Assembly (NCBI GenBank): GCA_905236985.1
Contig: CAJORF010000067.1
Span: forward strand, 1-52,406
Direction of reading: 5' to 3'
DNA: 52,406 nt
Origin: an uncultured Bacteroidaceae bacterium
GTDB taxonomy: Bacteria; Bacteroidota; Bacteroidia; Bacteroidales; Bacteroidaceae
Shown in pieces: positions 3,715 to 51,192 of the stretch; the stretch's first letter is position 1, and the number at the start of each line of letters is the position of its first letter. The notes under the pieces were generated by a model. That model had not been told where the DNA came from. It worked only from the letters and a program-made list of their open reading frames with translations, and made no database searches. The translations under genes were made by a program, and so were the position numbers.

Positions 3715-5139
3715 TTCTTTCAGCGATCCGCCGCCGAGTGCCTGATAAAGCTCGATGGTGGCAGAGATGATAGCGTACTGGTTGGCGAGTTGGCCGAGCT
3801 GTGCGCTGAGCAGACCCGTCTGAGCAGTGAGGACATTGATGTAGTTCACCTGACGGCTGACATTGTCCCTGTAGAGTGCTTCGGTAGCACTAACGGCTTC
3901 GTTGAGCGCGTTGATTTGTCCGTCGATGGCCTGACGCTTGCCCTGTGCAGTCTGCAATTTCACGAGAGCGGTGTTGACCTCGTTGCCCGCTGCGATGAGA
4001 CTCTGCTGGAAGGCCAGTTTGGCTTCCTCCTGTTGCATCTCAGCTACGCGCTTCTGTGCACGCAAACGTCCGTTCTGGAAGATGGGCTGTATCAACTGTC
4101 CAAGGGCGTTCCAGATCCACTTGCCCGGATTCAGCTCAATACTGCTACCATTGTTGGTGAAACCGAGCGTACCGCTGATGGTGAGCGAGGGATAGAAATC
4201 GGCCTTGGCACTGTTGACAGCGTAGAACTTGCTGGCAAGGGCGAGTTCGGCCTGACGCACGTCGGGGCGGTTCTGCAGAAGAGCCATCGGAATACCTGTC
4301 TCGACAGCAGCAGGAACCTGGAAACTGTTGAGGCCACCACGCTCGATGTGGTGAGGAGCTTCGCCGAGGATGGTACAGAGGGCGTTCTCAGCCTGAATGA
4401 TACCTTCGCGCAAGTCGTACAGGTTGGCTTCGACACTGAAGCAGTTGGCTTCGGTCTGTGCAACGGCAGCTTTGTTGGAGCGACCAGCGGCCATGAGCTT
4501 ACGGGTAAGCTCCACGTTCTGACGCCAATTGGCGGCTGTCTGCTCACTGATGGCCAGCTGAGCATCGAGCATACAGAGCGAATAGTAGATGTTAGCGATA
4601 TTGGCCACGAGTGCCTGCTGAACAGCCTGACGGGCGGTCTGCGTCTGTTCCACAGCCACCTCAGCACTCTTCTTGGCGTTGCGCAGTTTTCCGAAGCTGC
4701 CAATCTGCCAAGAGGCTGAGAGCGGTACGGTGTAGAACTTCAGCGGCTTGCTCCAGTCCATGCTGGAGAGCTGTCCCTGCGGCGCAATGGCGAGGGTCGG
4801 GATGTAGGCGAGCTTGGAGCACTTGAGGTACTCCTGTGCCTCCTGAATTTGAAGGTCGAGCTGACGCATGGAGAGGTTCTGCGACAGGCCACGCTCGATG
4901 AGGGCTTGCAGCTGCGGGTCGGTGAAGAACTCACGCCAAGCCTTGGCACCCAGGCTCTGCTCGGAGTTGCCAACCTGCGCAGATCCGTAGAGACCATCGG
5001 TCTGCAGGTCACTAGGACGCTCGTAGGAACGGTAAATGCCGCAGGAAGACATCAAAAGTGTGGTAAGGAGAAGAAGACCCACCCGCCTGCCCCTCCCCTT
5101 AAGGGAGGGTAGTATATTCTTTTGCAAAAAGATACTCAT
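3712..5139 (-). CDS. RND efflux outer-membrane lipoprotein (NodT/TolC family)
   Basis: A 475-aa outer-membrane factor that forms the exit duct of a tripartite efflux pump. The lipoprotein signal ends LLLLTTLLMSSC, with the lipidated Cys at about residue 33, followed by GIYRSYERP. The rest shows the duplicated TolC pattern: coiled-coil helices rich in Ala, Gln and Leu, 'NRPDVRQAELALASKFYAVNSAKADFYPSL' split over the usual OEP repeat, and a C-terminal YRDNVSRQVNYINVL...QLANQYA helix. The first 20 residues, including ILPSLKGRGRR, are encoded by an arm of the inverted-repeat element at 5075-5225. The element therefore supplies the charged n-region of the signal peptide. A GTG at residue 21 is a possible alternative start but would lack that charge. 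Confidence 0.92.
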   Translation of the reverse strand: MSIFLQKNILPSLKGRGRRVGLLLLTTLLMSSCGIYRSYERPSDLQTDGLYGSAQVGNSEQSLGAKAWREFFTDPQLQALIERGLSQNLSMRQLDLQIQEAQEYLKCSKLAYIPTLAIAPQGQLSSMDWSKPLKFYTVPLSASWQIGSFGKLRNAKKSAEVAVEQTQTARQAVQQALVANIANIYYSLCMLDAQLAISEQTAANWRQNVELTRKLMAAGRSNKAAVAQTEANCFSVEANLYDLREGIIQAENALCTILGEAPHHIERGGLNSFQVPAAVETGIPMALLQNRPDVRQAELALASKFYAVNSAKADFYPSLTISGTLGFTNNGSSIELNPGKWIWNALGQLIQPIFQNGRLRAQKRVAEMQQEEAKLAFQQSLIAAGNEVNTALVKLQTAQGKRQAIDGQINALNEAVSATEALYRDNVSRQVNYINVLTAQTGLLSAQLGQLANQYAIISATIELYQALGGGSLKE

Positions 5140-5225
5140 ATTAATAAATATATAATGTGTTTTTTAATACTATTATCAGAGGTAATCGCCCCGTCCCTCA
5201 CAAGGAGGTTGGAGGGGGAGCTTTC
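5075..5225 (-). repeat. Intercistronic inverted-repeat element, copy A
   Basis: The left arm (5075-5114, AGACCCACCCGCC...) and right arm (about 5181-5225) are imperfect inverted repeats. Each carries its own CCCTCC/GGAGGG mini-palindrome. The right arm carries GGTAATCGC and overlaps the last bases of the RND pump stop codon (5224-5226). The left arm lies inside the next gene and is translated. Same transcription-relative orientation as copies C, E and F. Confidence 0.85.
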
Positions 5226-8200
5226 AGTTTTTTGCATTTTCACGCTCCATCCTGCTGCGTTCCTGTTCCTTGAGGAACTGCTGGTCGGCATCAACCTTCA
5301 TAGCGGGGCGGATCTTCTCCTGCAGGTACTCGAAGAAGATGAAGAAGACGGGCACAGTGAAGAGAATGGCCAGCGTACCGACAATCATACCGCCCACGAC
5401 ACCAACGCCGATAGTACGGTTGCCGTTGGCACCGGCACCGACAGCGAAGAGCAGCGGCATCATGCCGAGCACACAGGTGAGGACGGTCATGAGGATCGGG
5501 CGCAGACGAGCCTCGGCAGCTGCGTAGGCGGCCTCAACGATGCCCATACCTTTGCGACGGCGCTCAAGGGCGTACTCCGTGATGAGGATAGCGGTCTTGG
5601 CCAACAGGCCGATAAGCATGATGACACCGGTCTGAAGATAGATATTGTTCTCAATCTGTCCTAACGGAGAGAACGGAATAGCCTCTTCCAACACAAAATA
5701 CTTGAAGGCCGTGATGCCGACCGAAGACATATTCCACAGCCAAGCAAAGCCGAAGGAACCCATCAAGCCGGCCGGCACGGAGAGGATGACGGCGAAGGGC
5801 ACGAGGAAGCTCTCGTAGAGACAGCTGAGGATGAGGAAAATGAGGACGACGCAGATGGCATAGATCAGGATGGTCTGATTGGAACCCATCTGCTGGTGCT
5901 CCTCACGGCTGATGCTACCGTATTCGTAGGTGATGTGGTCAGGCAGTGTCTGGCTGCGCACCTCGTCGATAGCCTTCATGGCATCCGAGGTCGTGAAACC
6001 ACTGGCAGGCTGCACCATGCAGGTAATCTCGGAGAAGAGGTTGAAGTGGGTATCAATTTCAGGACCGAGCACGGGGGTCAACTTCACGAACTGCGAGAGG
6101 GGTGCCATCTCCTTGCCGCTGCGGACATACATATTGGAGAGGTCGGCTTCAGAGACGCGGTACTTGGGATCGGTCTGCAACATGACGCGATAGACCTTAC
6201 CGAACTGGTTGAAGTTGCTGGCATAGGAACCGCCGAGATAGCCGCTCATGGCCGACAGCACAGCTTGCGGAGAGATGCCGGCGAGCTTGCACTGGGCTGC
6301 ATCCACCTCGACGCGATACTGGGGATAATTGCGGGCGTAGGTTGTCATGGCTGTCTGAATCTCCTCGCGTTCGTTGAGGGCTGCGAGGAAGGCCGTGGTC
6401 TGCTCAAGGAATACTTCCTTGTCGCCGTCAGAGCGGTCTTGCAGGTGAAGGTCAACGTTGGAGCCCATACCATAGCCGGGGATCATACCGGGCTCGAAGA
6501 GGAAGATCTGTGCCTCGGGAATCTCAGCCATCAGCTCCACCATCTTCAGGATTTTCAAGTTACTGGACTTATGGTTCACACCGTCACGTTGACTCCAATG
6601 CTTGAGCTTGAGAATGAGCATGGCATTGGCAGCACCCTGACCGCCCATGAAGCTGTAGCCCGTCACGCGGGAGATGCGCTCAATGTCTTCGCTCCTCTCA
6701 ATAATGGCCTGCGCACGGTCAACGACGCTCTCGGTATAAGCCAAGTTGCTGCCCGGAGGACAGGTGACATTGACCATCAGCACGCCCTGGTCTTCCTGCG
6801 GCACAAGTCCCTTGGGAAGCGCGGTCATAAAGAAGACGAGCAGCACGGCGGCAACGACGAAGGCAAGCGGGGCTACCCATCGGTGGTTAATCACGCCGCG
6901 AAGGTTGCGGTTATACCTGCGCATGACCCTGCCATAGAACGCCTCATAAGCGCTGCGGGTCGTTCTATTTGTGGCAAGCAGGAAAGCACTGAAGGCGTTA
7001 TTGGCCTTGCGGTCTTTCTTGGCCGGACGCATGAGCATGGCGCAGAGGGCAGTACAGACGACGAGGGCACTGATACAGGAGATACCGACGGCGGTAGCCA
7101 GCGTGACACCGAACTGCGTATAGAACATACCGCTCGTGCCAGGCATCATTGTGACGGGGATGAACACAGCCATGAAAACGAAGGTACACGAGATGACGGC
7201 CATCGTCACATCGCCCATAGCATCCTTTGTGGCCTTATAAGCGGAGGTGTAGCCCGCGTCAAATTTCGCCTGCACGGCCTCCACGACAACGATGGCATCA
7301 TCCACAACCGTACCGATGGCCAACACCAAAGCGAAGAGCGTCAGCAAGTTCAGCGTGAATCCGGCTACCGCCAACGCGGCGAAAGTGCCGACCGTGGAAA
7401 TGACCATACTGATGAGCGGGATGATCGTGGCGCGGAAATCCTGCAAGAAGAAATAGACCACCAGAATGACGAGGAAAGCTGCAATGAAGAGGGTCTCCTC
7501 GACATTGGCAATGGAGGCCAGGAGGAAGTCGTTGGTGGACATCATCTGCGCAAAATGAAGTCCCTTGGGCAACGTCTTCTCAATTTCGTTGAGCGTGTTG
7601 GTGAGGCGGTCGTTGGTCTCCTTAGCATTGGCACCAGCCACCTGGAAAGCCATGAAGATGACCGAGGGCTTGCCATCGACCATGCCATTGTATCCGTAGT
7701 CAACCTGTCCGAGCTCCACCTCAGCCACATCTTTCAGACGTAGCAGCGAGCCGTCGGCCTTGGCCAGGATGACGATGTTCTTGAACTCTTCGACCTCCTT
7801 CAGACGACCCGTATAGCGGAGAGTATATTGATAGACATTATTGACGTTGCCACCGCGACCGCCCTGCATGGGCTTCTCGCCCAGCTTGCCGACAGCAGCC
7901 TCAAGGTTCTGTTCGGCCAGACAGGCGGTGATATCCGACGGTACGAGGCTGTATTGCGCCATGATCTCGGGCTTGAGCCAGACGCGCAGCGAGTAGTTGG
8001 CACCCATCGCCTGCACCTCACCGATACCCTGAATACGCTTGAGCTGAGGCGTGACGTTGATGTTCATGTAGTTGGCCATGAAGTTCTGGTCGTACTCGGG
8101 AACATCGCTCACGAGGGCGTTAATCTGGAGCATGGAGGTCTGACGCTTAAAGGTCATCACACCAATCATCGTGACTTCCTGCGGCAGCAGGCCCTGAGCC

Positions 8201-8541
8201 ATGGATACGCGATTCTGCACGTTGACAGCGGCCATATCGGGATTGGTGCCTTGTTTGAAATAGACCGTGATGGTGGCAGAACCGTTATTGGTGGCTGTGG
8301 AGGTCATATAGGTCATGTTCTCCACGCCGTTGATGCTTTCTTCCAAAGGTTGGATGACAGCCTTGGTCACTGTTTCAGCCGAGGCACCAGGGTAGGAAGC
8401 ACTGACCATCACCGTAGGTGGTGCGATATCAGGGAACTGTTCTACCGGCAGGCTGAAATAGCTGATAGCGCCTAAGATAAGGATCATGATGGCTATGGAA
8501 AGAGCCATCACAGGGCGCTTGATGAATATATTACCTTTCAT
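5224..8541 (-). CDS. RND efflux inner-membrane pump (HAE1/AcrB family)
   Basis: A 1105-aa proton-driven multidrug exporter of the hydrophobe/amphiphile RND family. It starts MKGNIFIKRPVMALSIAIMI, the usual first transmembrane helix, followed by SLPVEQFPDIAPPTVMVSASYPGAS (split here from a longer conserved block). TM4 contains GTVVDDAIVVVEAV (about residues 400-415) with the paired Asp residues of the proton relay. TM segments, duplicated periplasmic domains and a C-terminal VLGMMPLLFAVGAGANGN...GTLAILFTVPVFF match AcrB-type pumps, and the length is slightly above the usual 1030-1060. The C-terminus ends in a charged tail ERSRMERENAKN. It lies between the adaptor and outer-membrane genes in one minus-strand operon. 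Substrate not predictable. Confidence 0.95.
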   Translation of the reverse strand: MKGNIFIKRPVMALSIAIMILILGAISYFSLPVEQFPDIAPPTVMVSASYPGASAETVTKAVIQPLEESINGVENMTYMTSTATNNGSATITVYFKQGTNPDMAAVNVQNRVSMAQGLLPQEVTMIGVMTFKRQTSMLQINALVSDVPEYDQNFMANYMNINVTPQLKRIQGIGEVQAMGANYSLRVWLKPEIMAQYSLVPSDITACLAEQNLEAAVGKLGEKPMQGGRGGNVNNVYQYTLRYTGRLKEVEEFKNIVILAKADGSLLRLKDVAEVELGQVDYGYNGMVDGKPSVIFMAFQVAGANAKETNDRLTNTLNEIEKTLPKGLHFAQMMSTNDFLLASIANVEETLFIAAFLVILVVYFFLQDFRATIIPLISMVISTVGTFAALAVAGFTLNLLTLFALVLAIGTVVDDAIVVVEAVQAKFDAGYTSAYKATKDAMGDVTMAVISCTFVFMAVFIPVTMMPGTSGMFYTQFGVTLATAVGISCISALVVCTALCAMLMRPAKKDRKANNAFSAFLLATNRTTRSAYEAFYGRVMRRYNRNLRGVINHRWVAPLAFVVAAVLLVFFMTALPKGLVPQEDQGVLMVNVTCPPGSNLAYTESVVDRAQAIIERSEDIERISRVTGYSFMGGQGAANAMLILKLKHWSQRDGVNHKSSNLKILKMVELMAEIPEAQIFLFEPGMIPGYGMGSNVDLHLQDRSDGDKEVFLEQTTAFLAALNEREEIQTAMTTYARNYPQYRVEVDAAQCKLAGISPQAVLSAMSGYLGGSYASNFNQFGKVYRVMLQTDPKYRVSEADLSNMYVRSGKEMAPLSQFVKLTPVLGPEIDTHFNLFSEITCMVQPASGFTTSDAMKAIDEVRSQTLPDHITYEYGSISREEHQQMGSNQTILIYAICVVLIFLILSCLYESFLVPFAVILSVPAGLMGSFGFAWLWNMSSVGITAFKYFVLEEAIPFSPLGQIENNIYLQTGVIMLIGLLAKTAILITEYALERRRKGMGIVEAAYAAAEARLRPILMTVLTCVLGMMPLLFAVGAGANGNRTIGVGVVGGMIVGTLAILFTVPVFFIFFEYLQEKIRPAMKVDADQQFLKEQERSRMERENAKN

Positions 8542-8555
8542 TGTTGTTTGTTAGA

Positions 8556-8711
8556 AGACCCACCCCGCCTTGCGGCACCCCTCCAATAATGGAGGGGAGG
8601 CTGGCGCATAGGGATTTACAGGGCCATTATTATTGTTGTTGTTCGAATAGATCTTTTCACTCATACATCCCGCAGATTCCCCTCCTTACGGGAGGAGACT
8701 GGGGGGGGTCT
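8556..8711 (-). repeat. Intercistronic inverted-repeat element, copy B
   Basis: 156 bp from AGACCCACCCC on the pump side to GGGGGGGTCT on the adaptor side. It ends exactly one base before the adaptor's stop codon (8712-8714). The arm next to the stop carries CATCCCGCAG, as in copy D, and the inner sequences of B and D also align loosely (GGCT..CGC, TAYAGGG.CATT). The other end stops 14 bp before the pump ATG, in the ribosome-binding region. Confidence 0.88.
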
Positions 8712-9839: not shown

Positions 9840-9880
9840 ACCAATTATATTATATTTAGTAGTTTCTTTATTTGCGGGTG

Positions 9881-9888
9881 CAAAGGTA
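9881..9888 (-). promoter_or_regulatory. -7 box for the RND efflux operon
   Basis: TACCTTTG on the minus strand, 41 bp before the adaptor start. No good TTTG box at 19-21 bp. It is divergent from the promoter at 9961-9992. Confidence 0.6.
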
Positions 9889-9960
9889 CTGCTTTTTTTT
9901 AAACAGCGAGCAGAAAAAACAAACGAAGATATAAAAAAATATGTGAATTATCACATTTAT

Positions 9961-9992: not shown

Positions 9993-10018
9993 CACCCACA
10001 AACAAAACAATAAATGAT

Positions 10019-11482
10019 ATGAATGTAGGCTTATCTACACTTATCCGCTTGTGGGCGACACAGAAACGACACGATTTTTCATGGCGGACTTTTTTCGTAG
10101 GGTTGATCCTCGTTGTCTATTTCATCACGATCCTGTTAGTTGTCTATTTTGGGGTGCGCGAACGGCTGCAGGAGATGGGGAACCTCTTTGAATGGCCGGC
10201 CTTAGCACCCTTGTTGGCGGTATCCATCATGCCCAGCGACCTCATGATGAAGATCTTCTGGCGACGTTCACCAGTGGAGATGGACGACTACCTGCGCACA
10301 CGTCCGGTCTCGCAACGCGACTGGAGCCGTTTTATCCTTTTTGACACGTCCCTCGGTGGACTGCAATGGCTAATGCCGTTAATCATGACCTTCGTGGCAG
10401 GTCTCGTCCTTCCCTGGTGGGCTGCGATACAGACCTTCGTGCTGACATACTCCATTGCAATGGTCAACGCACTGTTCCAGAACTGCTGGCGACGCGCTCC
10501 GGGCAATCAGTGGACGTTGCCACTCCTCCTCTCCTACCCCATTTGGATGATTGTCAGCTACGCTATAGCCATCGCAAGCTTCATCATCATCGGGCTGGCG
10601 GGTGATGACCCATCTACGCCAGTTGAACCGACCTCTGTGATCTTCGGTCTGGTCGTTAGTACGGCAGCGATGCTCGCTGTCAATATCCTCGCCGGTGCAC
10701 TGCTACAATGGTACTTTGTACGGCTGCGCAACCACAACGAGGAAACGCACGCGCCCGTTCATACCACCACTGTTCACTCGCTGGGGGAGGTCTCAGTGTG
10801 GAGCATCGAATGGGTGCAGCTTATACGTAGCAAACGGCTCAGATCCAGTTTTCTGTCCATTGCCATCGTCTTCTTGCTCAACGTCTATCTGCAACAGATG
10901 TCACCATCGATTGGAAATGATTCCTTCCTTCATGTCAATCCGATGCTCATGTTTGGCATTGGTTTCCCAAGCCTTATCCTGGCTCAGTGGGTGCTGGGCA
11001 TTGAGGCCAATTTCTTCTCTTGCATCTGGACTAAGCCTTGGTCTGTAGAGGGTATTCTTCGCCGCAAGTACGTATTTTTCTGCATGATATGTATTTTCAT
11101 GGCCTTGCTCATCCTTCCTGCCGTGCTATTCATGAATCTCTCCGTTTGGGCTTGGCTGGCCACTCTGCTCTTTTCCTGCGGCGTTTTCATCCTGCCCTTC
11201 ATGTGTACCTGTCTGTTCAGTTCGCGCATGGATCTGTTCGCGTCGGCTTTCTTCAACTATCAAGGCGGCAACAAGCAAATCAATGTCTTTTCCTTCGTGA
11301 TGTTTATACCTCTTTTAATATACTTCTGTGCCTATATCTTCCTCCCCATTCCCTGGGCGCACCTAACCACCGCCGTCCTCGGCATCGCTGGTCTCCTGCT
11401 CCACCGCTGGTATATCCATTGGGTTGCAACCCTCTGGTTCAAAAGACGATATAAGATCATGGAACGCTGGCTGACAGAGTAG
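10019..11482 (+). CDS. DUF5687-type ABC transporter permease
   Basis: A 487-aa multi-spanning membrane protein beginning MNVGLSTLIRLWATQKRHDFSW. At least ten hydrophobic segments are visible, such as FFVGLILVVYFITILLVVYFG and ILPAVLFMNLSVWAWLATLLF (each part of a longer run). The pattern is that of Bacteroidetes DUF5687 proteins, which pair with a single ATPase as an exporter. The ATP-binding gene follows after 42 bp, supporting this. The frame could extend back to 9962, but the promoter lies inside that extension, so the ATG at 10019 is chosen. Substrate unknown. Confidence 0.82.
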   Translation: MNVGLSTLIRLWATQKRHDFSWRTFFVGLILVVYFITILLVVYFGVRERLQEMGNLFEWPALAPLLAVSIMPSDLMMKIFWRRSPVEMDDYLRTRPVSQRDWSRFILFDTSLGGLQWLMPLIMTFVAGLVLPWWAAIQTFVLTYSIAMVNALFQNCWRRAPGNQWTLPLLLSYPIWMIVSYAIAIASFIIIGLAGDDPSTPVEPTSVIFGLVVSTAAMLAVNILAGALLQWYFVRLRNHNEETHAPVHTTTVHSLGEVSVWSIEWVQLIRSKRLRSSFLSIAIVFLLNVYLQQMSPSIGNDSFLHVNPMLMFGIGFPSLILAQWVLGIEANFFSCIWTKPWSVEGILRRKYVFFCMICIFMALLILPAVLFMNLSVWAWLATLLFSCGVFILPFMCTCLFSSRMDLFASAFFNYQGGNKQINVFSFVMFIPLLIYFCAYIFLPIPWAHLTTAVLGIAGLLLHRWYIHWVATLWFKRRYKIMERWLTE

Positions 11483-11514
11483 AAAAAGCGAAAAATAAAA
11501 AGTGAAAAATAAAC
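11483..11514 (+). repeat. GAAAAA-type stop-anchored spacer repeat
   Basis: Begins directly after the permease stop codon and reads GCGAAAAATAAAAAGTGAAA and onward. Similar strings occur at 19010-19046, inverted at 19107-19140, and in the 33069-33101 gap. Confidence 0.55.
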
Positions 11515-11524
11515 TATTATCGCA

Positions 11525-17243: not shown

Positions 17244-19010
17244 ATGTACAGAACACACACTTGTGGCGAGCTCAGACTCGCCAACGCAGGCGAGACAATC
17301 ACACTCGCCGGTTGGGTGCAACGCACCCGTAAAATGGGCGGTATGACCTTCGTCGATGTCCGCGACCGTTATGGTATCACTCAGGTCGTCTTCGAGGAGG
17401 CTGCCAACGCCGACCTCTGCGAACAGGCCAATAAGCTTGGACGCGAATACGTGATCCAAGTGACAGGAACCGTCAACGAGCGTTCCAACAAGAACGCCAA
17501 CCTACCTACCGGCGACATTGAGATCATCGCCTCTGAACTGCGCGTGCTGAATGTCAGCGTGACACCCCCCTTCACCATCGAGGATCAGAGCGATGGCGGC
17601 GATGACCTCCGCATGAAATACCGCTACCTCGACCTGCGTCGCACACCCGTTCGCCGCAATCTTGAGCTTCGTCATCGCATGACGATGGAAGTGCGCCGTT
17701 ATCTTGACAGCCTCGGCTTCCTGGAGATCGAGACACCGATGCTCATCGGCTCTACGCCCGAGGGAGCTCGCGACTTTGTCGTTCCCTCACGCATGAACCC
17801 CGGTCAGTTTTATGCCCTGCCGCAGTCGCCTCAGACGCTAAAGCAGCTGCTGATGGTTTCGGGCATGGATCGCTACTTCCAGATCGTCAAATGCTTCCGC
17901 GACGAAGACCTGCGTGCTGACCGCCAGCCGGAGTTCACACAGATCGACTGCGAGATGAGCTTCATCACACAAGAGGACATCCTCCAGACCTTCGAAGGGA
18001 TGGCCAAGCACCTTTTCCGCGAATTACGAGGCATTGAAATCGATGGTGCTTTCCCCCGCATGACTTGGGCTGATGCTATGAAATACTACGGTTCCGACAA
18101 GCCTGACACACGTTTTGAGATGAAGTTTGTGGAACTCAAGGACGTCTTCGCTCAGGCTCCTGGCTTTGCTGTTTTCGACGATGCCAAATACATCGGCGGC
18201 ATCTGTGCCACGGGGCAGGCCGTCTATACCCGCAAGCAGCTCGACCAGCTCACCGACTTCGTCAAGCGTCCGCAGATCGGTGCCAAGGGGCTCGTTTATG
18301 CACGCGTCAACGAGGACGGATCGGTCAAGTCCAGCGTCGATAAGTTCTATGGCGAGGACATCCTCAACGCCTTGAAACAAAAGATGAACGCTCAGCCCGG
18401 CGACCTCATCCTCATCCTCAGCGGTGATGACATCATGAAGACCCGCAAGCAGCTCTGTGAACTCCGCTTGGAGATGGGTGCTCGCATGGGACTGCGCGAC
18501 AAGAACAAGTTCTCCCTCCTCTGGGTCATCGACTTCCCGATGTTCGAGTGGAGCGAAGAGGAGGGACGCCTCATGGCAACCCACCATCCCTTCACACACC
18601 CCAAGGACGAGGACATACCCCTGCTCGACACGGATCCTGCAGCCGTGCGTGCGGATGCCTATGATATGGTCTGCAATGGTGTCGAAGTGGGCGGCGGATC
18701 CATCCGTATCCACGACCCGGAGCTGCAGGACAAGATGTTCCGCATCCTTGGTTTCACCGAGGAGCGTGCTCAAGAGCAGTTCGGCTTCCTCATGAACGCC
18801 TTCAAGTACGGTGCACCGCCTCACGGAGGACTCGCCTACGGCCTCGACCGCTGGGTCAGCCTCTTCGCCGGCCTCGACAGCATCCGCGACTGCATCGCCT
18901 TCCCGAAGAACAACTCGGGCCGTGACGTCATGCTCGATGCTCCTGCCTGCCTCGAACAGAAGCAGCTCGATGAGCTCTATCTCAGCCTCATACCTGTCGA
19001 GAGCGAATAA
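17244..19010 (+). CDS. aspS: Aspartate--tRNA ligase
   Basis: A 588-aa class II synthetase that charges tRNA-Asp. The N-terminal OB anticodon-binding domain starts [20 protein letters not shown]. Motif 2 is visible as [20 protein letters not shown] (about residues 212-231), and motif 3 as GLAYGLDRW near the end (about 530-538), preceded by KYGAPPHG. The GAD insertion domain lies between. Length is standard (about 585-590). The upstream gap is short and partly filled by a spacer repeat; the stop overlaps the start of a possible longer frame of the lipoprotein gene. Confidence 0.98.
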
Positions 19011-19140
19011 TGAAAAATGAAAGTGTGAAAAATAAGAATATGATTCACCATACATGGACTACGCAAGCCTGTAAACTTTGGCATGAAAGAGTGAAAGGTA
19101 TCTATTATTTTTCACTTTTCACTCTTTCATTTTTCACTCT
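19010..19140. repeat. Inverted GAAAAATGAAAG repeats around a start site
   Basis: The stretch at 19010-19046 (TGAAAAATGAAAGTGTGAAAA) is repeated inverted at 19107-19140 (TTTTTCAC/TTTTCACTCTTTCA). The second arm lies in the next gene and encodes the hydrophobic core of its signal peptide. Confidence 0.65.
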
Positions 19141-19495
19141 CGTAGCCTGCACTGAATCCTTTGAGGATCGCTGTCGGCGCGAGGCCCGTGAATTCACCGA
19201 GCGGATGTGTCCGCGTGCGATGACACCCGGCATGGTGATGGACAGTATGGTGTTCGTCAGCGACCCCATCGGCTTCAACTATTTCTACACTCTCGACGGC
19301 GCACTCGACGATTCCGAGCTGCTTACCCAGGAGGTGCTCTCGACCTTCCACGATGAGCTGCTGAAGAACCTGCGCGAGGACATCAGCCTAAAGAAATACA
19401 AGGAGCGCGACTTCACCTTCACCTACACATACTACTCGCAGAGCACGGGCGAAGTGCTCACCGAAGCCGCTTTCGGACCTGAAGAATATCATTAA
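19091..19495 (+). CDS. Small lipoprotein of unknown function
   Basis: A GTG start at 19091 gives MKGIYYFSLFTLSFFTLVAC, a compact lipoprotein signal with Cys at residue 20 and a lipobox LVAC; the 134-aa product follows. An ATG at 19010 in the same frame, overlapping the aspS stop, would add 27 polar residues, which is unlike a signal peptide. The mature protein (CTESFEDRCRREAREFTERM) has charged helices and a C-terminal beta-rich KERDFTFTYTYYSQSTGEV. No family is recognised. The hydrophobic core is encoded by the TTTTCACT-type repeat, an unusual origin for a signal peptide. Location: membrane-anchored, probably periplasmic or outer surface. Confidence 0.7.
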   Translation: MKGIYYFSLFTLSFFTLVACTESFEDRCRREAREFTERMCPRAMTPGMVMDSMVFVSDPIGFNYFYTLDGALDDSELLTQEVLSTFHDELLKNLREDISLKKYKERDFTFTYTYYSQSTGEVLTEAAFGPEEYH

Positions 19496-28333: not shown

Positions 28334-28574
28334 CAAACGGGAAAAGCTTCTCCGAAAAGATCTTTGACATCAGCTACAATTACCATAGCCGCATCGGTTT
28401 GATCGGGAGACTCATCAATTAACATCAGAAAACCGAGAACGTTTCGCTGTCCAATGGCGGGCTGCGCCCTTTGGGGTAACCTCTTCACGGAGGCCGGCAG
28501 ATTACAAAGGAAGCGAGCACTCAAATCATATTTACTCGGAGTTCTCATCACATCACCGATGCGGTTTCTTTTTT
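28334..28574 (+). ncRNA. Candidate structured RNA (leader or independent sRNA)
   Basis: A closing helix CCGCATCGGT (28389-28398) pairs perfectly with ACCGATGCGG (28555-28564), followed by a T-rich stretch (28565-28574). Inside it: TTGAT/ATCAA (28399-28403, 28414-28418), CCGAG/CTCGG (28433-28437, 28535-28539), TTCGCT/AGCGAG (28443-28448, 28512-28517), GGGC/GCCC (28459-28469) and CCTC/GAGG with a TTCACG loop (28480-28493). All are nested, forming one long arm with two terminal hairpins. No coding frame fits across it. It could be a 6S-like RNA, a leader controlling the GDSL gene, or a new family. 5' end is inferred from the promoter. No Rfam family is claimed. Confidence 0.45.
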
Positions 28575-38445: not shown

Positions 38446-39123
38446 TTAAGTATCAGGATTCAAGGCTCCTTCGATTCTCAGTTTCTCCACCTTCTCTAAT
38501 CGTTGGCGAAGGCGAGGCATGAGTGAGGCACGTATGGAAAGTGTCATAAGGCAATCGTTGTCGAAAGTCTGGCTGACGATGGCGGGTTCCTCCTCTTTCA
38601 CTATGCGCATGACTTGGTTCATCAGTGTGTATTCAAAAGCGATAGTAATCTGTTCATCCACAGTCTTCTCAATGATAGTGGCGGCAGCTATCGCTTCAGC
38701 AGCTGCAGCTTTGTAGGCTTGAATGAGTCCGCTGGTGCCGAGCTTCACGCCTCCGAAATAGCGAACGACGATGATGAGTACGTCCGTCAGCTCGTTGCTG
38801 TTGATCTGCCCAAGAATGGGTTTGCCTGCTGTGCCACTCGGTTCACCATTGTCGTTAGCGCGGAACACCAGACGCTCATGGCCCAACATATAAGCATAAC
38901 ACACGTGACGCGCATCGTAGTACTTCTTTTGATGGCTCTCCACCAACTCCTTGATCTCTTCTACCGTAGATACTGGAAAAGCGAAGGCAAGAAACTTGCT
39001 TCGCTTCTCCGTATAAGTACCTTCAGAAGGGGAAGAGAGGGTGAGGTAACTATCAAAAGACTCTCCCCCCGCCCTCCCTTTTAGGGAGGGAGCAGTATCT
39101 TTAGATTGATTGCTTTCATTCAT
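38446..39123 (-). CDS. YigZ/IMPACT family protein with element-encoded N-terminus
   Basis: A 225-aa protein of the YigZ/IMPACT family: YLTLSSPSEGTYTEKRSKFL (about 26-45) is where the family normally starts, followed by ANDNGEPSGTAGKPILGQ and RYFGGVKLGTSGLIQAY, and a C-terminal DUF1949-like part. The first 22 residues (MNESNQSKDTAPSLKGRAGG and on) are encoded by the inverted-repeat element at 39058-39191; the translated arm contains APSLKGRAGGE. Either the original start was lost or the annotated start is in the element, so the extension is real only if translation begins at 39123. Role unclear; eukaryotic IMPACT affects translation control. Confidence 0.85.
   Translation of the reverse strand: MNESNQSKDTAPSLKGRAGGESFDSYLTLSSPSEGTYTEKRSKFLAFAFPVSTVEEIKELVESHQKKYYDARHVCYAYMLGHERLVFRANDNGEPSGTAGKPILGQINSNELTDVLIIVVRYFGGVKLGTSGLIQAYKAAAAEAIAAATIIEKTVDEQITIAFEYTLMNQVMRIVKEEEPAIVSQTFDNDCLMTLSIRASLMPRLRQRLEKVEKLRIEGALNPDT
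38448..38465 (-). repeat. CTTGA-type spacer repeat including a stop codon
   Basis: Minus strand CCTTGAATCCTGATACTT; the stop codon of the YigZ gene is its last TAA. Related to 3686-3714 and 17201-17224. Confidence 0.5.
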
Positions 39124-39191
39124 GATGGAACACCATTATCGAAGGTAATCGCTCCCTCCCTGATAGGGAGGGCGGGGGGAGAGTCCTGGTC
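39058..39191 (-). repeat. Intercistronic inverted-repeat element, copy C
   Basis: Left arm 39058-39104 (AGACTCTCCCCCCGCCC...) is translated in the YigZ gene; right arm about 39145-39185 ends near the DUF1015 stop codon (39197-39199). The right arm carries GGTAATCGC and the left carries the ATACTGCTCC equivalent. Orientation matches A, E and F relative to transcription. Confidence 0.88.
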
Positions 39192-40453: not shown

Positions 40454-40605
40454 AGACCCACCCCCGACCCCTCCCGTTAGGGAGGAGAGCGGCTAACGCT
40501 TGGAAGTCTATAGGGTCATTCTTTTTATACAATTAAACTAAATAGAAATAGTCACACATCCCGCAGGCTCTCCCCTCCCTTACGGGAGGGTTCGGGGGTG
40601 AGTCT
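40454..40605 (-). repeat. Intercistronic inverted-repeat element, copy D
   Basis: 152 bp between the DUF1015 ATG (9-bp gap) and serA. The serA stop codon (40606-40608) directly follows the AGTCT end (40601-40605). The arm next to the serA stop carries CATCCCGCAG, like copy B. Confidence 0.9.
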
Positions 40606-41533: not shown

Positions 41534-41680
41534 AGACTCTCCCCCATTCCCTCCCTATAAGGGAGGGAGCAGAATGTTTTGCTATTGGAAGGTATGAGTC
41601 ATTATTTTGTAAATTATTAAAATCTCTTTTTGAAAGGTAATAGCTCCCCTCCCTAACGGGAGGGGTTGGGGGTGGGGCTT
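41534..41680 (-). repeat. Intercistronic inverted-repeat element, copy E
   Basis: Left arm 41534-41575 (AGACTCTCCCCC...) lies 10 bp before the serA ATG; right arm about 41636-41680 ends one base before the serC stop codon (41682-41684). The right arm carries GGTAATAGC. Same orientation as A, C and F relative to transcription. Confidence 0.9.
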
Positions 41681-42911: not shown

Positions 42912-42935
42912 CCTTCTTTTGCCTTTTTTGTGGTT

Positions 42936-43511: not shown

Positions 43512-43528
43512 TTCCGATACGAGATTGT

Positions 43529-45124: not shown

Positions 45125-45150
45125 ATTCGATTAAATAGAATCTATTTCCA

Positions 45151-45921: not shown

Positions 45922-45956
45922 ATATTCAATATCTTTTATCAATACCAATTAGTCAT

Positions 45957-46706
45957 CTATCGCTCATTTTTATCTTCTTCTTTCATATGATGTATCTTCT
46001 CGGCTATGCGGTCACTCCAGGACTTCCAGTAGTCCAAAAGCGCATCACGGATCTGATTGATGTCAGCGTCAGAGAAGGACAGGCGGAGGCTCTCGACATA
46101 TTCGTAAACAGCCGTGTTGACATCCACAATTTGCTCCTGTAGCTGGGGCGAATGATACAACCAACGGCTGAGCGTATCCAAATGGCGGTCGATGCCCTCG
46201 CGTCGTATGCGTTGGTCGATGGTGCGCCGCCCTTCTTGTACAGCCCGATCCACTTCGGTCATGGGCTCAGGAGCCGGACGTCGGGGGCGTCGCCGCACAG
46301 TGTCTGCCTGCACACGCGCGCTGTGGATCTGTCCCATGAGATCACTGACCACTTGTTCCATCTCATGCAACGCATGTTCCAGGGAATCAATGACTTGTTC
46401 CGTACGCGAAGGACCTTCTGCCATCGCAGCCGCACTGTCTGAAGGTGCATCCTTGGCAGCCTTGAGCAAAGGCGTGCCAGAAGGATAAAGCGGAGCGGGA
46501 GGGGCTTGCGTGAATGCTGTGGCGGGAGACCTCTGCTGCGCCTCTGATGAGTCCCGGTCGGATGACTTGGCAACCAACACGACATCACGTGTCGGGAGCG
46601 GGGCAGATTGACGGGTGTTGCGACCCTTGAGCAAGTATGCCTCGCCTACCATCAGGAGTGCCGTCACAGGCAACATCCACGCCCATTTCCGGAGACCCTT
46701 CATCAT
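45957..46706 (-). CDS. Membrane-anchored protein of unknown function
   Basis: A 249-aa protein with a single N-terminal transmembrane segment (WAWMLPVTALLMVGEAYLL, about 8-26), a low-complexity Pro/Ala/Ser-rich region (about 30-95), a predicted coiled coil (EQVIDSLEHALHEMEQVVSDLMGQIHSARV, about 103-132 split here), and a basic helical C-terminus. No domain is recognised. It begins a minus-strand operon with the amidase and iorAB. A TAACTTTG box lies 32 bp upstream. Confidence 0.7.
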   Translation of the reverse strand: MMKGLRKWAWMLPVTALLMVGEAYLLKGRNTRQSAPLPTRDVVLVAKSSDRDSSEAQQRSPATAFTQAPPAPLYPSGTPLLKAAKDAPSDSAAAMAEGPSRTEQVIDSLEHALHEMEQVVSDLMGQIHSARVQADTVRRRPRRPAPEPMTEVDRAVQEGRRTIDQRIRREGIDRHLDTLSRWLYHSPQLQEQIVDVNTAVYEYVESLRLSFSDADINQIRDALLDYWKSWSDRIAEKIHHMKEEDKNER

Positions 46707-46737
46707 GGTTCGAAGATACTTATCCTGTTTGACGGCG

Positions 46738-46745
46738 CAAAGTTA
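46738..46745 (-). promoter_or_regulatory. -7 box for the unknown/amidase/iorAB unit
   Basis: TAACTTTG on the minus strand. Divergent with the LRR gene promoter. Confidence 0.5.
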
Positions 46746-46873
46746 ATAATAATATTAGAGTTTTATGGTTTACACAGAACGAAAAATCCCTTTTCAGCGT
46801 AAAAAATATCATAAATAACGAACTCTACGTATATTTTACCAACTCAAAACAGTCCGAAAACGAAACTTTTTCA

Positions 46874-46881
46874 TACCTTTG
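46874..46881 (+). promoter_or_regulatory. -7 box for the LRR protein gene
   Basis: TACCTTTG only 9 bp before the ATG, so the mRNA may be nearly leaderless or the start may lie downstream. Confidence 0.45.
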
Positions 46882-46889
46882 TACCGAAA

Positions 46890-47696
46890 ATGCAACGAAA
46901 ACTGACCCTCATACTCCTGCTCACAGGTCTCTGCTGCTACACCCTTGCCCACGTAGAGACGATTCCCTTTGCTGACATGACGGCCAAGCGCATCTGCGTG
47001 GAACTTTGGGACACGGATGGCGATGGCGAAATCAGTTTTGAGGAAGCCCGTGGCGTGACTGACCTGGCTGGTGCGTTCTGTCTCCGTCTGCTCAATAGTC
47101 CCTCGACATTCAGCGAGTTGCAATACTTCACATCGCTGCGCGAGATCAGTCCGCGCGCCTTCACCGACTGCTACCACCTGCGCTCCATCGCTCTACCCTC
47201 TTCCGTTCAGTTCATCCATGAGCATGCTTTCTCCTCTTGTGTCCAACTGGAGGAAGTGCAGATTCCCACTTCTGTCCAGCGTCTTGGTCAGAGTTGCTTC
47301 TTCCGTTGCACCAGCCTACAGGAAATCCTTGTGCCCCCCTCCGTACGTGACTCCATCCCCTACCAAGCTTTCGCCTACTGCTCTGAACTGCAACGAGCTA
47401 CCATTGAGGCCAATATCCGCATCATCGGAGTCCGCGCTTTCCATGAGTGCTCACGTTTGCTCACCATTACGCTCCCCTTCACCACGACCAAGGTTTGTAA
47501 CGACGCTTTTACCGGCTGTCCCGAGATACGTCAGATTTTTTGCCGCGCCACGACTCCCCCTGAGTACGACGGCAATGTCTTCGATCCTCGCGTGCTGTCT
47601 AACGCCGTCCTTTTTGTGCCTGAAGGCTGTGCAGAAGCTTACCGACAGGCGAACGGCTGGAGCAGCTTCAAGTTCATCACAGAGACCTTTGAATAG
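46890..47696 (+). CDS. Secreted BspA-like leucine-rich repeat protein with one EF-hand
   Basis: A 268-aa secreted protein. Signal peptide MQRKLTLILLLTGLCCYTLA. A full EF-hand loop DTDGDGEISFEE (residues 41-52; ligands at 41, 43, 45, 47 and Glu52) suggests calcium binding. Then about five LRR_5 (BspA-type) repeats of about 22-24 residues, recognised by IALPSSVQFIHEHAFSSCVQ and similar units (each part). The C-terminus ends YRQANGWSSFKFI, the usual end of BspA repeats. Role: adhesion or protein interaction at the cell surface. No T9SS-type C-terminal domain is visible. Confidence 0.86.
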   Translation: MQRKLTLILLLTGLCCYTLAHVETIPFADMTAKRICVELWDTDGDGEISFEEARGVTDLAGAFCLRLLNSPSTFSELQYFTSLREISPRAFTDCYHLRSIALPSSVQFIHEHAFSSCVQLEEVQIPTSVQRLGQSCFFRCTSLQEILVPPSVRDSIPYQAFAYCSELQRATIEANIRIIGVRAFHECSRLLTITLPFTTTKVCNDAFTGCPEIRQIFCRATTPPEYDGNVFDPRVLSNAVLFVPEGCAEAYRQANGWSSFKFITETFE

Positions 47697-47756
47697 CACA
47701 AATAACAGCGTCGCACTGTCATTCTTGCCATTATGATGCAGAAAAGTACACATTTA

Positions 47757-47788
47757 CTTGCATAGTTATCACATAATACGTAACTTTG
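47757..47788 (+). promoter_or_regulatory. Promoter of the his operon
   Basis: CTTG (47757-47760, weak match to TTTG), 20-bp spacer, TAACTTTG (47781-47788). It precedes hisG by 30 bp, too short for a transcription attenuator. Confidence 0.6.
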
Positions 47789-47818
47789 CACTCAATTTGA
47801 AACGAACATCTTTCAATC

Positions 47819-48670
47819 ATGATACGAATAGCTGTACAATCCAAGGGCCGTCTTTATGAAGATACGATGGCTCTGCTCGCCGAGGCGGGCATCAAAATAC
47901 CACAGAGCAAACGCACATTGCTCGTCGAGTCACCCAACTTCCCCATCGAGATCCTCTATCTGCGCGACGATGATATCCCGCAATCCGTGGCCAGCGGAGT
48001 CGCCGACCTTGGTATCGTAGGCGAGAACGAGTTTGTGGAACGCGCTGAGGATGCCGACATCGTGCGTCGACTCGGTTTCAGCAAATGCCGCCTGTCGCTC
48101 GCCATTCCCAAAGGCTACGACTACATGGGTGTCGAGTGGTTCGAAGGCAAAAAGATTGCCACGAGCTACCCCAACATCCTTCGCGCATACCTTAATAATA
48201 AAGGTGTACAGGCCAAGATTCACGTCATCACGGGTAGCGTGGAGATCTCCCCGGGCATCGGGCTGGCTGATGCCATCTTCGACATCGTATCCTCCGGCGG
48301 CACCCTTGTGAGCAACAACCTGCGTGAGGTGGAAGTGGTGATGAAGAGCGAGGCGCTGCTTATTGCCAACAAGGATCTCGACGAAGAGAAACGCGCCATT
48401 CTCGACGACCTTCTCTTCCGCATCGAAGCCGTCAAAGCTGCTGAGGATAAGAAATATGTGCTGATGAACGTGCCGAGCGCACGCTTGGACGAGGTCATCG
48501 CGGTACTACCAGGAGCTAAGAGCCCTACGGTCATGCCACTGGCCACGCCTGGATGGAACAGCGTCCACACAGTCATCGACGAGAAACGCTTCTGGGAAGT
48601 CATCTCACAGCTCAAAGCCCTTGGCGCACAAGGCATTCTCGTCATCCCTATTGAGAAAATGATTCTGTAA
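47819..48670 (+). CDS. hisG: ATP phosphoribosyltransferase, long form
   Basis: A 283-aa enzyme for the first step of histidine synthesis, joining ATP and PRPP. MIRIAVQSKGRLYEDTMALL at the start, VADLGIVGEN and GSVEISPGIGLADAIFDIVSSG (parts) are the nucleotide-binding motifs. The extra ~70 residues at the C-terminus (from about 210) form the regulatory domain that binds histidine in the long HisG form, so no HisZ is needed. First gene of the operon; hisD starts 5 bp after its stop. Confidence 0.97.
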   Translation: MIRIAVQSKGRLYEDTMALLAEAGIKIPQSKRTLLVESPNFPIEILYLRDDDIPQSVASGVADLGIVGENEFVERAEDADIVRRLGFSKCRLSLAIPKGYDYMGVEWFEGKKIATSYPNILRAYLNNKGVQAKIHVITGSVEISPGIGLADAIFDIVSSGGTLVSNNLREVEVVMKSEALLIANKDLDEEKRAILDDLLFRIEAVKAAEDKKYVLMNVPSARLDEVIAVLPGAKSPTVMPLATPGWNSVHTVIDEKRFWEVISQLKALGAQGILVIPIEKMIL

Positions 48671-48675
48671 AAGAC

Positions 48676-49989
48676 ATGTTAATCTATAGAAATCCCAACG
48701 AGGCAGAGGTGAAGGAGATCATCACACGCCCCACCAAGGACGCTGCTGATCTCACAGCCACCGTTGCCGCAGTTCTCGCCCACGTGAAAAGCGATGGCGA
48801 TGCCGCCGTTCTCGACTTCGAACAACAGTTTGACAAAGTTGATCTCCGTTCCCTATGTGCCTCCACCACGGCCTCTCCACTCGCCGTCACCCCCGCTGAG
48901 TTTGCAGCCGCCGAAGCTGCCGTCAGCGATGAACTGAAAGCAGCCCTGCAGTTGGCACACGACAACATCGCCCGATTCCACGAAGCACAACGCTACGCTG
49001 GCATTGAGGTCGAGACAGCCCCTGGCGTGCATTGCTGGCAGCGAAGTGTACCCATCGAGCGCGTAGGTCTATACATCCCTGGCGGCACAGCTCCCCTGTT
49101 CTCCACCGTCCTGATGCTGGCCACGCCCGCCCGCATCGCTGGTTGCGGCGAGATTGTCCTCTGCACACCACCCCGCCGCGATGGCACTGTGAACCCCGCC
49201 ATCCTTGTAGCAGCCCGCATCGCAGGAGTGTCGAAGGTGTTCAAGGCAGGCGGTGTGCAAGCTATCGGTGTCATGGCCTACGGCACGGAGTCTGTGCCTA
49301 AGGTATTCAAGATCTTCGGCCCCGGCAATCAGTACGTCCAGTGCGCCAAGCAGCTCGTCTCACTCGCTGACGTAGCCATCGATATGCCTGCAGGTCCGAG
49401 CGAAGTGGAAGTGATAGCCGACGAAACGGCTAATCCAGCCTTCATTGCTGCCGACTTGCTGTCACAGGCTGAGCACGGTGTGGATTCTCAGGTACTATTC
49501 GTGACCACCTCTAAGCGCCTATTGGCTGATGTGGAAATAGAAGTAGCCAGTCAGCTCGAAGCCTTGCCTCGCAAGGACATCGCTGCAGCCGCTCTCTCCA
49601 ACTCGCGTCTCGTACTCGTCGATTCCCTTGACGAAGCCATCGCCCTCTCCAACCGTTATGCTCCTGAGCATCTGATTATTGAGACCGCTGATGCCGAAGC
49701 ACTCGCTGCCCGCGTCATCAATGCCGGTAGCGTGTTCATCGGTCATCTCACGCCCGAGAGTGCTGGCGATTACGCTTCCGGCACCAACCACACGCTGCCC
49801 ACAAACGGCTATGCCACAGCCTACAGCGGTGTCAACCTCGATGCCTTCTGCCGTAAGATCACCTACCAGCACATCACCCCCGATGGCATACGTTCCATAG
49901 GGCGCGCCGTCGAACTGATGGCCGAAGCCGAACAGTTAGATGCACACAAGAATGCCATGACCCTCCGTCTGAATTCCTTAAACTTTTGA
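48676..49989 (+). CDS. hisD: Histidinol dehydrogenase
   Basis: A 437-aa NAD- and zinc-dependent enzyme for the final two oxidations in histidine synthesis. PIERVGLYIPGGTAPLFSTV, GPGNQYVQCAK and AEHGVDSQVLFVTT (parts) match the family. The C-terminal GHLTPESAGDYASGTNHTLP (about residues 355-374) carries zinc and substrate ligands. Length is standard (about 430-440). The stop codon lies in a short AACTTTTGA repeat shared with the gap to hisC. Confidence 0.97.
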   Translation: MLIYRNPNEAEVKEIITRPTKDAADLTATVAAVLAHVKSDGDAAVLDFEQQFDKVDLRSLCASTTASPLAVTPAEFAAAEAAVSDELKAALQLAHDNIARFHEAQRYAGIEVETAPGVHCWQRSVPIERVGLYIPGGTAPLFSTVLMLATPARIAGCGEIVLCTPPRRDGTVNPAILVAARIAGVSKVFKAGGVQAIGVMAYGTESVPKVFKIFGPGNQYVQCAKQLVSLADVAIDMPAGPSEVEVIADETANPAFIAADLLSQAEHGVDSQVLFVTTSKRLLADVEIEVASQLEALPRKDIAAAALSNSRLVLVDSLDEAIALSNRYAPEHLIIETADAEALAARVINAGSVFIGHLTPESAGDYASGTNHTLPTNGYATAYSGVNLDAFCRKITYQHITPDGIRSIGRAVELMAEAEQLDAHKNAMTLRLNSLNF

Positions 49990-50012
49990 ACTCCTTGAAC
50001 TTTTGAACTTCA
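49978..50012 (+). repeat. TTTGAACT-type spacer repeat at the hisD stop
   Basis: AACTTTTGAACTCCTTGAAC then TTTTGAACTT; the hisD stop codon TGA is part of the first unit. It fills the gap to hisC. Confidence 0.5.
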
Positions 50013-50018
50013 ATCAAT

Positions 50019-51056
50019 ATGCTACCCTTTGATTCCTTGGTTCGCTCCACAATCCTCGCCATGACCCCTTACTCTTGCGCTCGCGATGAGTTTAAGGGAC
50101 GTGAGGCCAGCGTCTTCCTCGATGCCAACGAGAACCCCTATAATATGCCGTTCAACCGTTACCCCGACCCGCTTCAAGAGGAACTGAAAGGCAAGCTTTC
50201 GACAATCAAGGGCGTTCCCGCCAAGAACATCTTCCTTGGCAACGGCTCCGACGAAGCCATCGACCTCGTCTTTCGCATCTTCTGCGAACCGCGTCTGGAT
50301 AATGTCGTAGCCATCGCCCCCACATACGGGATGTACAGCGTCTGCGCCGAAATCAACGACGTCGAATATCGGGCCGTACCGCTCAACAATGACTTCACAC
50401 TCAATGCAGACCGCTTGCTGGCTGCCACCGACGAGCATACCAAAGTCATCTGGCTCTGTTCGCCCAACAACCCCACGGGCAACGCCCTCGACCGCAAGGA
50501 AATAGAGCGTGTGTTGACAGCATTTCAGGGGATTGTCGTCATCGATGAAGCCTACAGCGACTTCAACGACCTCCGCCCCTTCCGCCACGACCTCGACCGC
50601 TTCCCCAACATCATCGTTCTCAACACCTTCTCCAAGCTGTGGGCTTCTGCTGCCATCCGTTTGGGTATGGCCTTCGCTTCTGAGGACATCATTGCACTCT
50701 TCAACAAAATCAAATACCCCTACAACATCAACCAGCTCACACAGCAGCAAGCCCTGAAGATGCTCGATGAGCTGCAGCGCATCAACCAGTGGCGCATGAC
50801 CCTCCTCAACGAACGCCGCAACCTCCTGCCTGCCTTCGCCGAGCTGCCCATCTGCCGCGCCGTCTATCCCACCGATGCCAACTTCTTCCTGGCCCGCATG
50901 ACCGATGCCAACAGCATCTACCACTATCTCGTTGATCATGGCATCGTTGTCCGCAACCGCTCCCGAGTACAACTCTGCGGCAACTGTCTCCGCATCACCA
51001 TCGGTACACCACAGGAAAACAACGCACTGTTAGGAGCCTTGAGGCAGTATAAGTAG
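50019..51056 (+). CDS. hisC: Histidinol-phosphate aminotransferase
   Basis: A 345-aa PLP aminotransferase: [18 protein letters not shown] at the start, [46 protein letters not shown] and [19 protein letters not shown] (parts; Schiff-base Lys in FSKLW, about residue 208). The C-terminal [21 protein letters not shown] contains the substrate-phosphate Arg. Follows hisD after 29 bp; element F begins directly after its stop codon. Confidence 0.97.
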
Positions 51057-51192
51057 GGGGCTCTCCCCCGACCTCTCTGTAGGGAGGGAGCAATTTCCCT
51101 TTACAATAAAAAAACAGGAGTGGTTATGGAAATAAAATCAAATACTCAGAAACATACTGCTCCCTCCCAAGCAGGGAGGGCGGGGGGAGAGA
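51057..51192 (+). repeat. Intercistronic inverted-repeat element, copy F
   Basis: The left arm (about 51057-51092, ends GGGAGGGAGCAATTT) starts directly after the hisC stop codon (51054-51056). The right arm (about 51153-51192) is translated in hisB. The left arm contains the degenerate GGAAATTGC form of the conserved box (on the minus strand), the right one ATACTGCTCC. Orientation matches copies A, C and E relative to transcription, although this copy is on the plus strand. Confidence 0.87.

Follow-up and report, generated by a model that had tools for sequence, protein, structure and literature searches.

Rickettsia palindromic elements (RPE) are stem-loop repeats of ~100-150 bp that comprise several families and lie in frame in conserved protein genes as well as between genes, as described in the accessible text of PMC10969869 and PMC2229807. 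The REPIN/RAYT system consists of paired inverted palindromes in many copies and a partner gene that is itself flanked by palindromes, the two being thought to coevolve, and its RAYT subclass 2.6, which is Bacteroidetes-dominated, is flanked by atypical structures that recur at other places of the genome (accessible text of PMC6006769). The accessible parts of three further papers describe 23S rRNA intervening sequences (IVS) with S23p, a selfish element with a small open reading frame (ORF) that lies in rRNA and is excised by RNase III (PMC4990558), nematomorph mitochondria in which both inverted-repeat arms code for protein (PMC6649704), and the assignment of a DUF559 gene to the EDxHD family (PMC9403480). 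Here we report a family of palindromic elements, each built of two inverted hairpin arms, of which six copies (A to F) lie in a 52,406-nucleotide stretch of DNA from an uncultured Bacteroidaceae bacterium (GenBank assembly GCA_905236985.1, contig CAJORF010000067.1; ‘the window’ denotes this whole stretch) and of which long copies elsewhere hold a DUF559 gene. Our best reading is that these are protein-coding palindromes of the Rickettsia type in Bacteroidales, perhaps mobilised by DUF559, and the coding part of this reading is one we hold firmly.

The likeness to RPE is one of kind, drawn from published description: the size, the stem-loops, the several families and the in-frame insertion together with copies between genes recur here. 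The elements reported here differ in belonging to another phylum, in that each arm is its own hairpin, in their frequent occurrence at stop-to-start junctions and in the nuclease ORF between the arms of long copies; the accessible text of PMC10969869 and PMC2229807 mentions no ORF linked to RPE. To judge from a paper title, Wolbachia has protein-coding palindromic repeats that represent another near system. REPIN/RAYT are similar in architecture (inverted palindrome doublet, many copies, flanked partner gene), and subclass 2.6, as presented in the accessible part of PMC6006769, is the nearest printed relative by host; however, the partner here is DUF559 instead of a Y1 HUH transposase, and copies are abundant in coding frames. 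The EDxHD homing endonucleases (I-Bth0305I) are approached through the homology of DUF559 to 3hrl and 3r3p, but no intron or intein is seen here, and the gene lies between hairpin arms that also occur as many arm-only copies. Likewise, genes of the 23S rRNA IVS Pfam family are flanked by inverted arms here, although the elements lie between and in protein genes and not in rRNA. The nematomorph coding palindromes differ in being perfect, in occupying mostly species-specific places and in not being described as a dispersed sequence family in the accessible text of PMC6649704. A search of open-access papers found no description of the family or of DUF559 bracketed by palindromes, in agreement with the initial annotation of the window, which knew of no named Bacteroidetes family with such a layout.

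All six inverted-arm pairs that the initial annotation had proposed in the window were located, and their positions and gene contexts are as follows:

Element A, 5075..5225, minus strand: divergent type 1, with an AcrB/AcrD/AcrF-family gene (5224-8541) on one side and an outer-membrane efflux gene on the other.
Element B, 8556..8711, minus strand: type 2, immediately behind the stop codon of an HlyD-like gene.
Element C, 39058..39191, minus strand: type 1, with the downstream UPF0029 gene (38446-39123) beginning within the element.
Element D, 40454..40605, minus strand: type 2, at the junction of a 2-hydroxyacid dehydrogenase gene and a DUF1015 gene.
Element E, 41534..41680, minus strand: mixed type 1/2, at the junction of a class-V aminotransferase gene and a 2-hydroxyacid dehydrogenase gene.
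Element F, 51057..51192, plus strand: type 1, at the junction of an aminotransferase gene and an IGPD (HisB-type) gene.

Each arm of ~40 nt forms its own hairpin (CCCTCCC-loop-GGGAGGG) after a C-rich outer part, and the outer strand pairs with the other arm; arms are of two types, type 1 (GACTCTCCCCCCGCCCTCCC-...) and type 2 (AGACCCACCCCCGACCCCTCCC-...). As the initial annotation had it, all six copies lie between co-directional genes and the upstream stop codon falls 0-12 bp from the outer end, the distances found being 0-11 bp (A touching, B 0, C 11, D 0, E 2 and F 6 bp). The UPF0029 protein, predicted to begin with MNESNQSKDTAPSLKGRAGGES, takes its N-terminus, MNESNQSKDTAPSLKGRAGGESFDSY..., from element C, and a possible start of the IGPD gene at 51126 lies within element F. 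In element A a frame beginning at an ATG of the spacer runs through the 3' arm (MSIFLQKNILPSLKGRGRRVG...) and on into the efflux gene, for which the gene caller took a later start at 5052; at element B the next gene starts 14 bp past the element and its frame is not open into it. Element A is the weakest of the six: only one of its arms reaches at least 12 bits with the arm profiles (12.4), it is absent from the 123 paired copies analysed below, and as a blast query it matched 13 other sites in the genome at E<=1e-3.

The contig that makes up the window belongs to a draft genome of 2.80 Mb in 147 contigs, with an estimated completeness of 85%. Over 1,279,174 bases, profile matches of at least 8 bits numbered 512 for type 1 and 134 for type 2, counts that overlap because one arm can match on both strands and with both profiles, and reversal of this DNA left 1 and 0; merged arms of at least 12 bits numbered 330. 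These figures bear out the earlier suggestion of a MITE/REPIN-like repeat family, and the near-zero reversed-sequence control rules out generic GC-rich composition, which had been named as a possible cause of the arms. The scan of the own genome covered 681,589 bases (the window and 40 stretches, 35 of which were on contigs or contig parts selected for blast matches), and that of named genomes covered 80 loci among at least 111 brought in by the type-1 arm pattern. The labels of the 80 listed loci with exact type-1 arms read Bacteroidaceae, Prevotellaceae, Prevotella or Bacteroidales in 79 cases and Ruminococcus in one, and many bear ruminant sample names.

The window, the 40 stretches and the 80 loci gave 123 paired elements, of which 64 are intergenic between co-directional genes, 2 between convergent and 0 between divergent genes, 52 lie in ORFs and 5 at contig edges, shares that are biased by how stretches and loci were selected and do not represent an unbiased census. 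The between-gene copies are co-directional in 64/66 cases versus 65% expected by intergenic length (p = 4e-10, a value that, like the other uncorrected ones, treats some related sites as independent), and when each gene family is counted once the figure is 54/56 (p = 2e-8). In-gene and intercistronic copies together number 116 and represent 97 gene families, 19 copies falling in families already counted. Both convergent copies belong to one locus, L126, which is dense in arm-like repeats and also contains a long pair without DUF559. Pair lengths are 84-257 bp in genes, with 23/52 at 111-121 bp, and 115-222 bp between cistrons, and the family has the properties both of a dispersed palindromic repeat of ~100-150 bp and of a REPIN-type inverted doublet in many copies. 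Judged by type-1 inner flanks, orientation relative to transcription was the same in 26, opposite in 5 and not assignable in 33 intercistronic copies (19, 11 and 22 in genes); with both arms of type 1 the corresponding numbers are 21, 5 and 22 (18, 10 and 14 in genes). The constant orientation claimed for the window can be judged for A, C, E and F (the type difference bars B and D); beyond the window it is a bias and not a rule. The positional bias is real for copies between genes, but the picture of a purely intercistronic element in fixed orientation fails beyond the window: many copies outside operons or in random orientation had been named as what would speak against it, and 52/123 copies lie inside open frames, in both orientations. 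The layout had also brought attC/integron-like sites and invertible promoters into consideration, and these were dropped because of the copies inside housekeeping genes.

Both arms are readable as peptide. Type-1 copies in genes most often read DSPPALPVREGA-(spacer)-APSLTGRAGGES and type-2 copies RPTPDPSREGGE-like ... LPSLTGGVGGGS, with some in-gene copies reading the 5' arm in another phase; since both orientations occur in genes, the spacer reads REGA(V/I)TSE...SKHSAPSL or, reversed, REGAECFE...SKVTAPSL. Host genes identified by Pfam in the own genome encode altronate dehydratase, Mfd, a GH2 enzyme, PurL, FeoB, MutS2, serine dehydratase, a U32 peptidase, an ABC-F-like ATPase, DnaG and a fused CarA-CarB; names of host proteins that have neither a Pfam nor an NCBIfam assignment are presumptive. 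The 3' arms are preferentially read in one phase (phase 0), which accounts for 32/40 in-gene and 39/51 intercistronic type-1 arms with scorable cores, for 33/46 (p=1e-7) and 42/62 (p=3e-8) arms of all types, and for 27/39 (p=5e-6) and 38/53 (p=1e-8) with one copy per gene family. As 3' arms are open about equally often in phase 0 (98/108) and in phase 2 (97/108), this preference is not a mere absence of stop codons. At the 64 intercistronic copies, the upstream stop lies a median of 3 bp from the element, and the next gene is called to start within the element in 37 (window elements C and F among them), up to 30 bp after it in 14 and further away in 13. The downstream frame is open into the 3' arm in 59/64, where arm openness by itself predicts ~70% (p=1e-5). 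Intercistronic copies are, as predicted from their frames, often N-terminal coding copies, and we read translatability as the common denominator of the copies.

Orthologues were compared for in-gene insertion in Mfd and CarA-CarB. The Mfd of this genome has an in-frame insert of ~40 amino acids, IFEDSPPK-GSPPALPVREGAITFENEGLLSSKHSAPSLTGRAGGES-SLLSFTPV, and the arm peptide is absent at this site from 29/29 relatives fetched (e.g. IFEASPDALTFTPV), demonstrating in-frame insertion into a conserved gene whose orthologues lack the element. A second arm pair in Mfd flanks a segment that is present without arms in relatives. CarA and CarB form a single fused frame in 20/23 relatives with both sides found (24 relative loci within L263-L287, 1 of them one-sided). 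The linker is occupied in this genome by a C-rich palindrome, in G028 and G015 by another, in G016 by a third, and in G018, G005, G029, G003 and G030 by AT-rich palindromes, with the frame kept in every fused case; its folding z is -3.8 here, -4.9 to -11.4 in 7/19 relatives and between -2.4 and 1.2 in the other 12 (19 of the 20 fused linkers were folded, L265 being omitted as near-identical to L264). At locus L051, start, signal-peptide-like stretch and mature protein are contiguous in relatives without arms; in this genome and G018 one arm lies ahead of the start and the other in frame just behind the signal-peptide-like stretch, and G016 has tandem right arms and G003 AT-rich sequence.

Comparison of orthologous gene pairs, which the initial annotation had proposed, revealed short distances at the window sites: at site C the genes overlap or are at most 13 bp apart in 8/13 relatives, at site D the gap is at most 24 bp in 11/18 and at site E at most 30 bp in 11/19. 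The closest relatives (L191 from G003 and L192 from G016) carry divergent palindromic copies at the same spots of C, D and E. In L195, internal element units are reiterated head to tail between the same two genes at site D, and at site E both L195 and L206 have an IVP-type ORF with CATTGAACATTGACC-type repeats in place of the element.

Six longer pairs (485-519 bp) were selected among the unpaired arms by visual inspection rather than systematically; five hold a DUF559-family ORF, and the sixth (L126) contains more arm-like repeats. Among solved structures, DUF559 is closest to 3hrl (E=3e-16) and to 3r3p (E=0.0027), which belongs to a mobile intron, and by this sequence homology the element is predicted to encode an EDxHD/Vsr-like nuclease. 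We take 3r3p to be I-Bth0305I, and presumably DUF559 belongs to the Vsr superfamily, a placement that goes beyond these homologies and the published EDxHD assignment. In the own genome, the gene on one side of the DUF559 ORF encodes an acetolactate synthase small subunit and terminates within the 5' arm (QTLPPPSL, stop); the gene on the other side encodes an acyl-ACP thioesterase whose predicted N-terminus is MIDNNTSIHSAPSLIGRAGGES. Ten genomes of the genus were searched and 9 had DUF559 loci, 24 of which were fetched; after L225, L229 and L230 (partial or helicase-like) were dropped, inverted arms were present within 200 bp of the domain in 19/21 full-length loci versus 1/138 control genes, controls being measured outward from near gene ends and DUF559 and IVP loci from domain ends. 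Across the order, DUF559 is found in 28/79 genomes, and among 22 scored loci of 29 newly fetched (L234-L262, with the 7 weak or partial loci L254-L260 left out) arms occur at 9/16 standalone and 5/6 long-frame loci at an arm score of 30, and at 6 and 2 at a score of 36. The arm sequences vary among loci and co-vary with the DUF559 protein (Mantel rho 0.30, p=0.001, n=25; without near-duplicates rho 0.23, p=0.014, n=21); adding order loci, which were picked for having arms (16/22 entered, 15 kept), gave rho 0.49 (p=0.0002, n=40).

DUF559 also occurs fused to enzymes. It is in one frame with leucyl-tRNA synthetase at two sites in different Bacteroidales (by Pfam in L235, L256 and, at the second site, L257; by eye in L236, L241, L242, L246 and L259) and with HsdR in L249. 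Within the genus it is C-terminal to IspG via palindrome-type linkers (L226 by Pfam; L228 and L232 by eye) and fused behind phosphoglycerate mutase (in L213 by Pfam and in L220 by eye). A one-to-one link of exact arm counts with DUF559 type was considered over 37 genomes of the genus and found to be unsupported.

Overall, we consider it probable that the family is a palindromic mobile element of Bacteroidaceae/Prevotellaceae which is tolerated as a translatable peptide and for which DUF559 is the proposed, and leading, candidate mover. Tolerance in genes would follow from both hairpin arms, in either orientation, giving stop-free short Pro/Gly-rich peptides. Compact copies (~114 bp) lie inside genes, in linkers or loops in the examples compared, and operon-junction copies, which mostly run from directly behind a stop codon into or close to the next N-terminus, would supply or bracket the start. 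In long copies (485-519 bp), arms of the same kind enclose DUF559, a putative nuclease of the Vsr/EDxHD homing-endonuclease superfamily; the nuclease may recognise or cut its cognate hairpin arms, with repair of the break driving spread, and the compact copies would be non-autonomous derivatives.

Several observations weigh against this explanation. Cut-and-paste of one unit leaves the arms around native-looking DNA at L051 and in Mfd unexplained, and at the empty sites divergence blurs the junction base and with it any target-site duplication. With regard to coding, type-2 3' arms have no phase-0 preference (3/11 between genes, 1/6 in genes), frame-keeping in genes is partly by construction, as the in-gene class is defined by an open frame and no systematic search for frame-broken copies was made, and N-terminal fusion stays putative in the 27/64 intercistronic copies with a called start beyond the element. 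With regard to DUF559, the Mantel effect is modest, and exact type-1 arms, present in 8/37 genus genomes, do not track type-1 DUF559 genes: among these drafts, 73-88% complete, G015 yielded 40 exact arms but no type-1 DUF559, the elements of G018 are accompanied by no DUF559 match, and G010 yielded a type-1-like DUF559 but not one exact arm. In addition, 23S_rRNA_IVP genes lie within inverted arms in 24/27 scored loci, versus 2/138 controls at the same threshold (L288-L317 from 10 genus genomes; 30 fetched, 29 given, 2 not located). As this is about as frequent as at DUF559, the layout cannot be taken as the hallmark of a nuclease. The arms around the 23S_rRNA_IVP genes (score at least 30) are mostly AT-rich and made of short tandem units.

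These points bear most directly on the idea that the family is mobile and translated but that the DUF559 (and IVP) genes are passengers exploiting the arms, with spread due to a transposase absent from the draft or to replication-fork template switching at the hairpins. The likewise bracketed IVP genes, the arm numbers across the genus that do not follow DUF559 genes, and the inverted arms around native-looking DNA, which resemble template switching more than transposition, all favour such passengers; yet arm and DUF559 sequences co-vary, DUF559 is related to homing endonucleases, and the Y1 (HUH) transposase PF01797 (Y1_Tnp) had 0 matches in the window's genome (an 85% complete draft; relatives and other transposase families were not searched) versus a presence in 5/14 control genomes, and we regard this explanation as rather unlikely.

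The initial annotation had placed the constraint on RNA-level position between cistrons, the hairpins processing or stabilising operon mRNA or coupling translation and their position being selected for that. This would account for the extreme co-directional bias between genes and for the very near upstream stop codon, but against it stand the 52/123 copies that lie in genes in either orientation, many of them in conserved genes, the relatives in which the same neighbour genes are only a few bp apart, and the called starts within the element in 37/64 intercistronic copies; we now consider it highly improbable. Removal of the inserts after transcription or translation in an intron-, bypass- or intein-like manner, such that the protein never carries them, is in our judgement equally improbable. 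The hairpins are strong, DUF559 is related to an intron-encoded nuclease and RNase III cuts out the rRNA IVS elements (accessible text of PMC4990558); however, frames are kept in a preferred phase, which would be needless if the inserts were removed, and no splicing domain was reported in six DUF559 fusion proteins scanned with Pfam, three of them also with NCBIfam.

The window contains a further pair of arms, unlike A to F in composition:

AT-rich inverted arms, 18998..19142, plus strand: 38 nt, 79% complementary, bracketing the stop codon of one gene together with the start of the gene that follows (19010-19495).

In style these are like the arms around IVP genes, and the right arm codes for a hydrophobic stretch and then Cys (YYFSLFTLSFFTLVAC) near the protein start, which by eye is lipoprotein-signal-peptide-like. 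A lone AT-rich arm-like repeat at 11482-11512, right behind the stop codon at 11482, resembles them. Rfam at gathering thresholds found no RNA family at the elements, its sole match in the window being Bacteroidales-1 RNA (RF01693, suggested 6S RNA; 145.8 bits) at 28387-28572, away from the elements.

The proposal of a palindromic, translatable and DUF559-mobilised element can be extended, tentatively, to an undescribed class of mobile element with DUF559-driven palindromic arms and a sister class around 23S_rRNA_IVP proteins, which would have spread Bacteroidales-wide via translatability in two orientations, building linkers, N-termini, signal peptides and nuclease-enzyme fusions (LeuRS, IspG) of core proteins and bracketing native coding segments from two sides. 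A 2007 review, in its accessible text, put forward transposase-driven movement of small bacterial mobile repeats as a hypothesis without experimental support and left mobility as a future question (PMC2229807). With a family of coding palindromes that has a candidate enzyme gene between the same arms, the question of mobility becomes testable. The results suggest that selfish DNA writes peptide into core proteins at large scale, in linkers, N-termini, possibly signal peptides and, in leucyl-tRNA synthetase, a nuclease domain, which matters for how genes are called in Bacteroidales and for the evolution of Bacteroidales proteins and operons.

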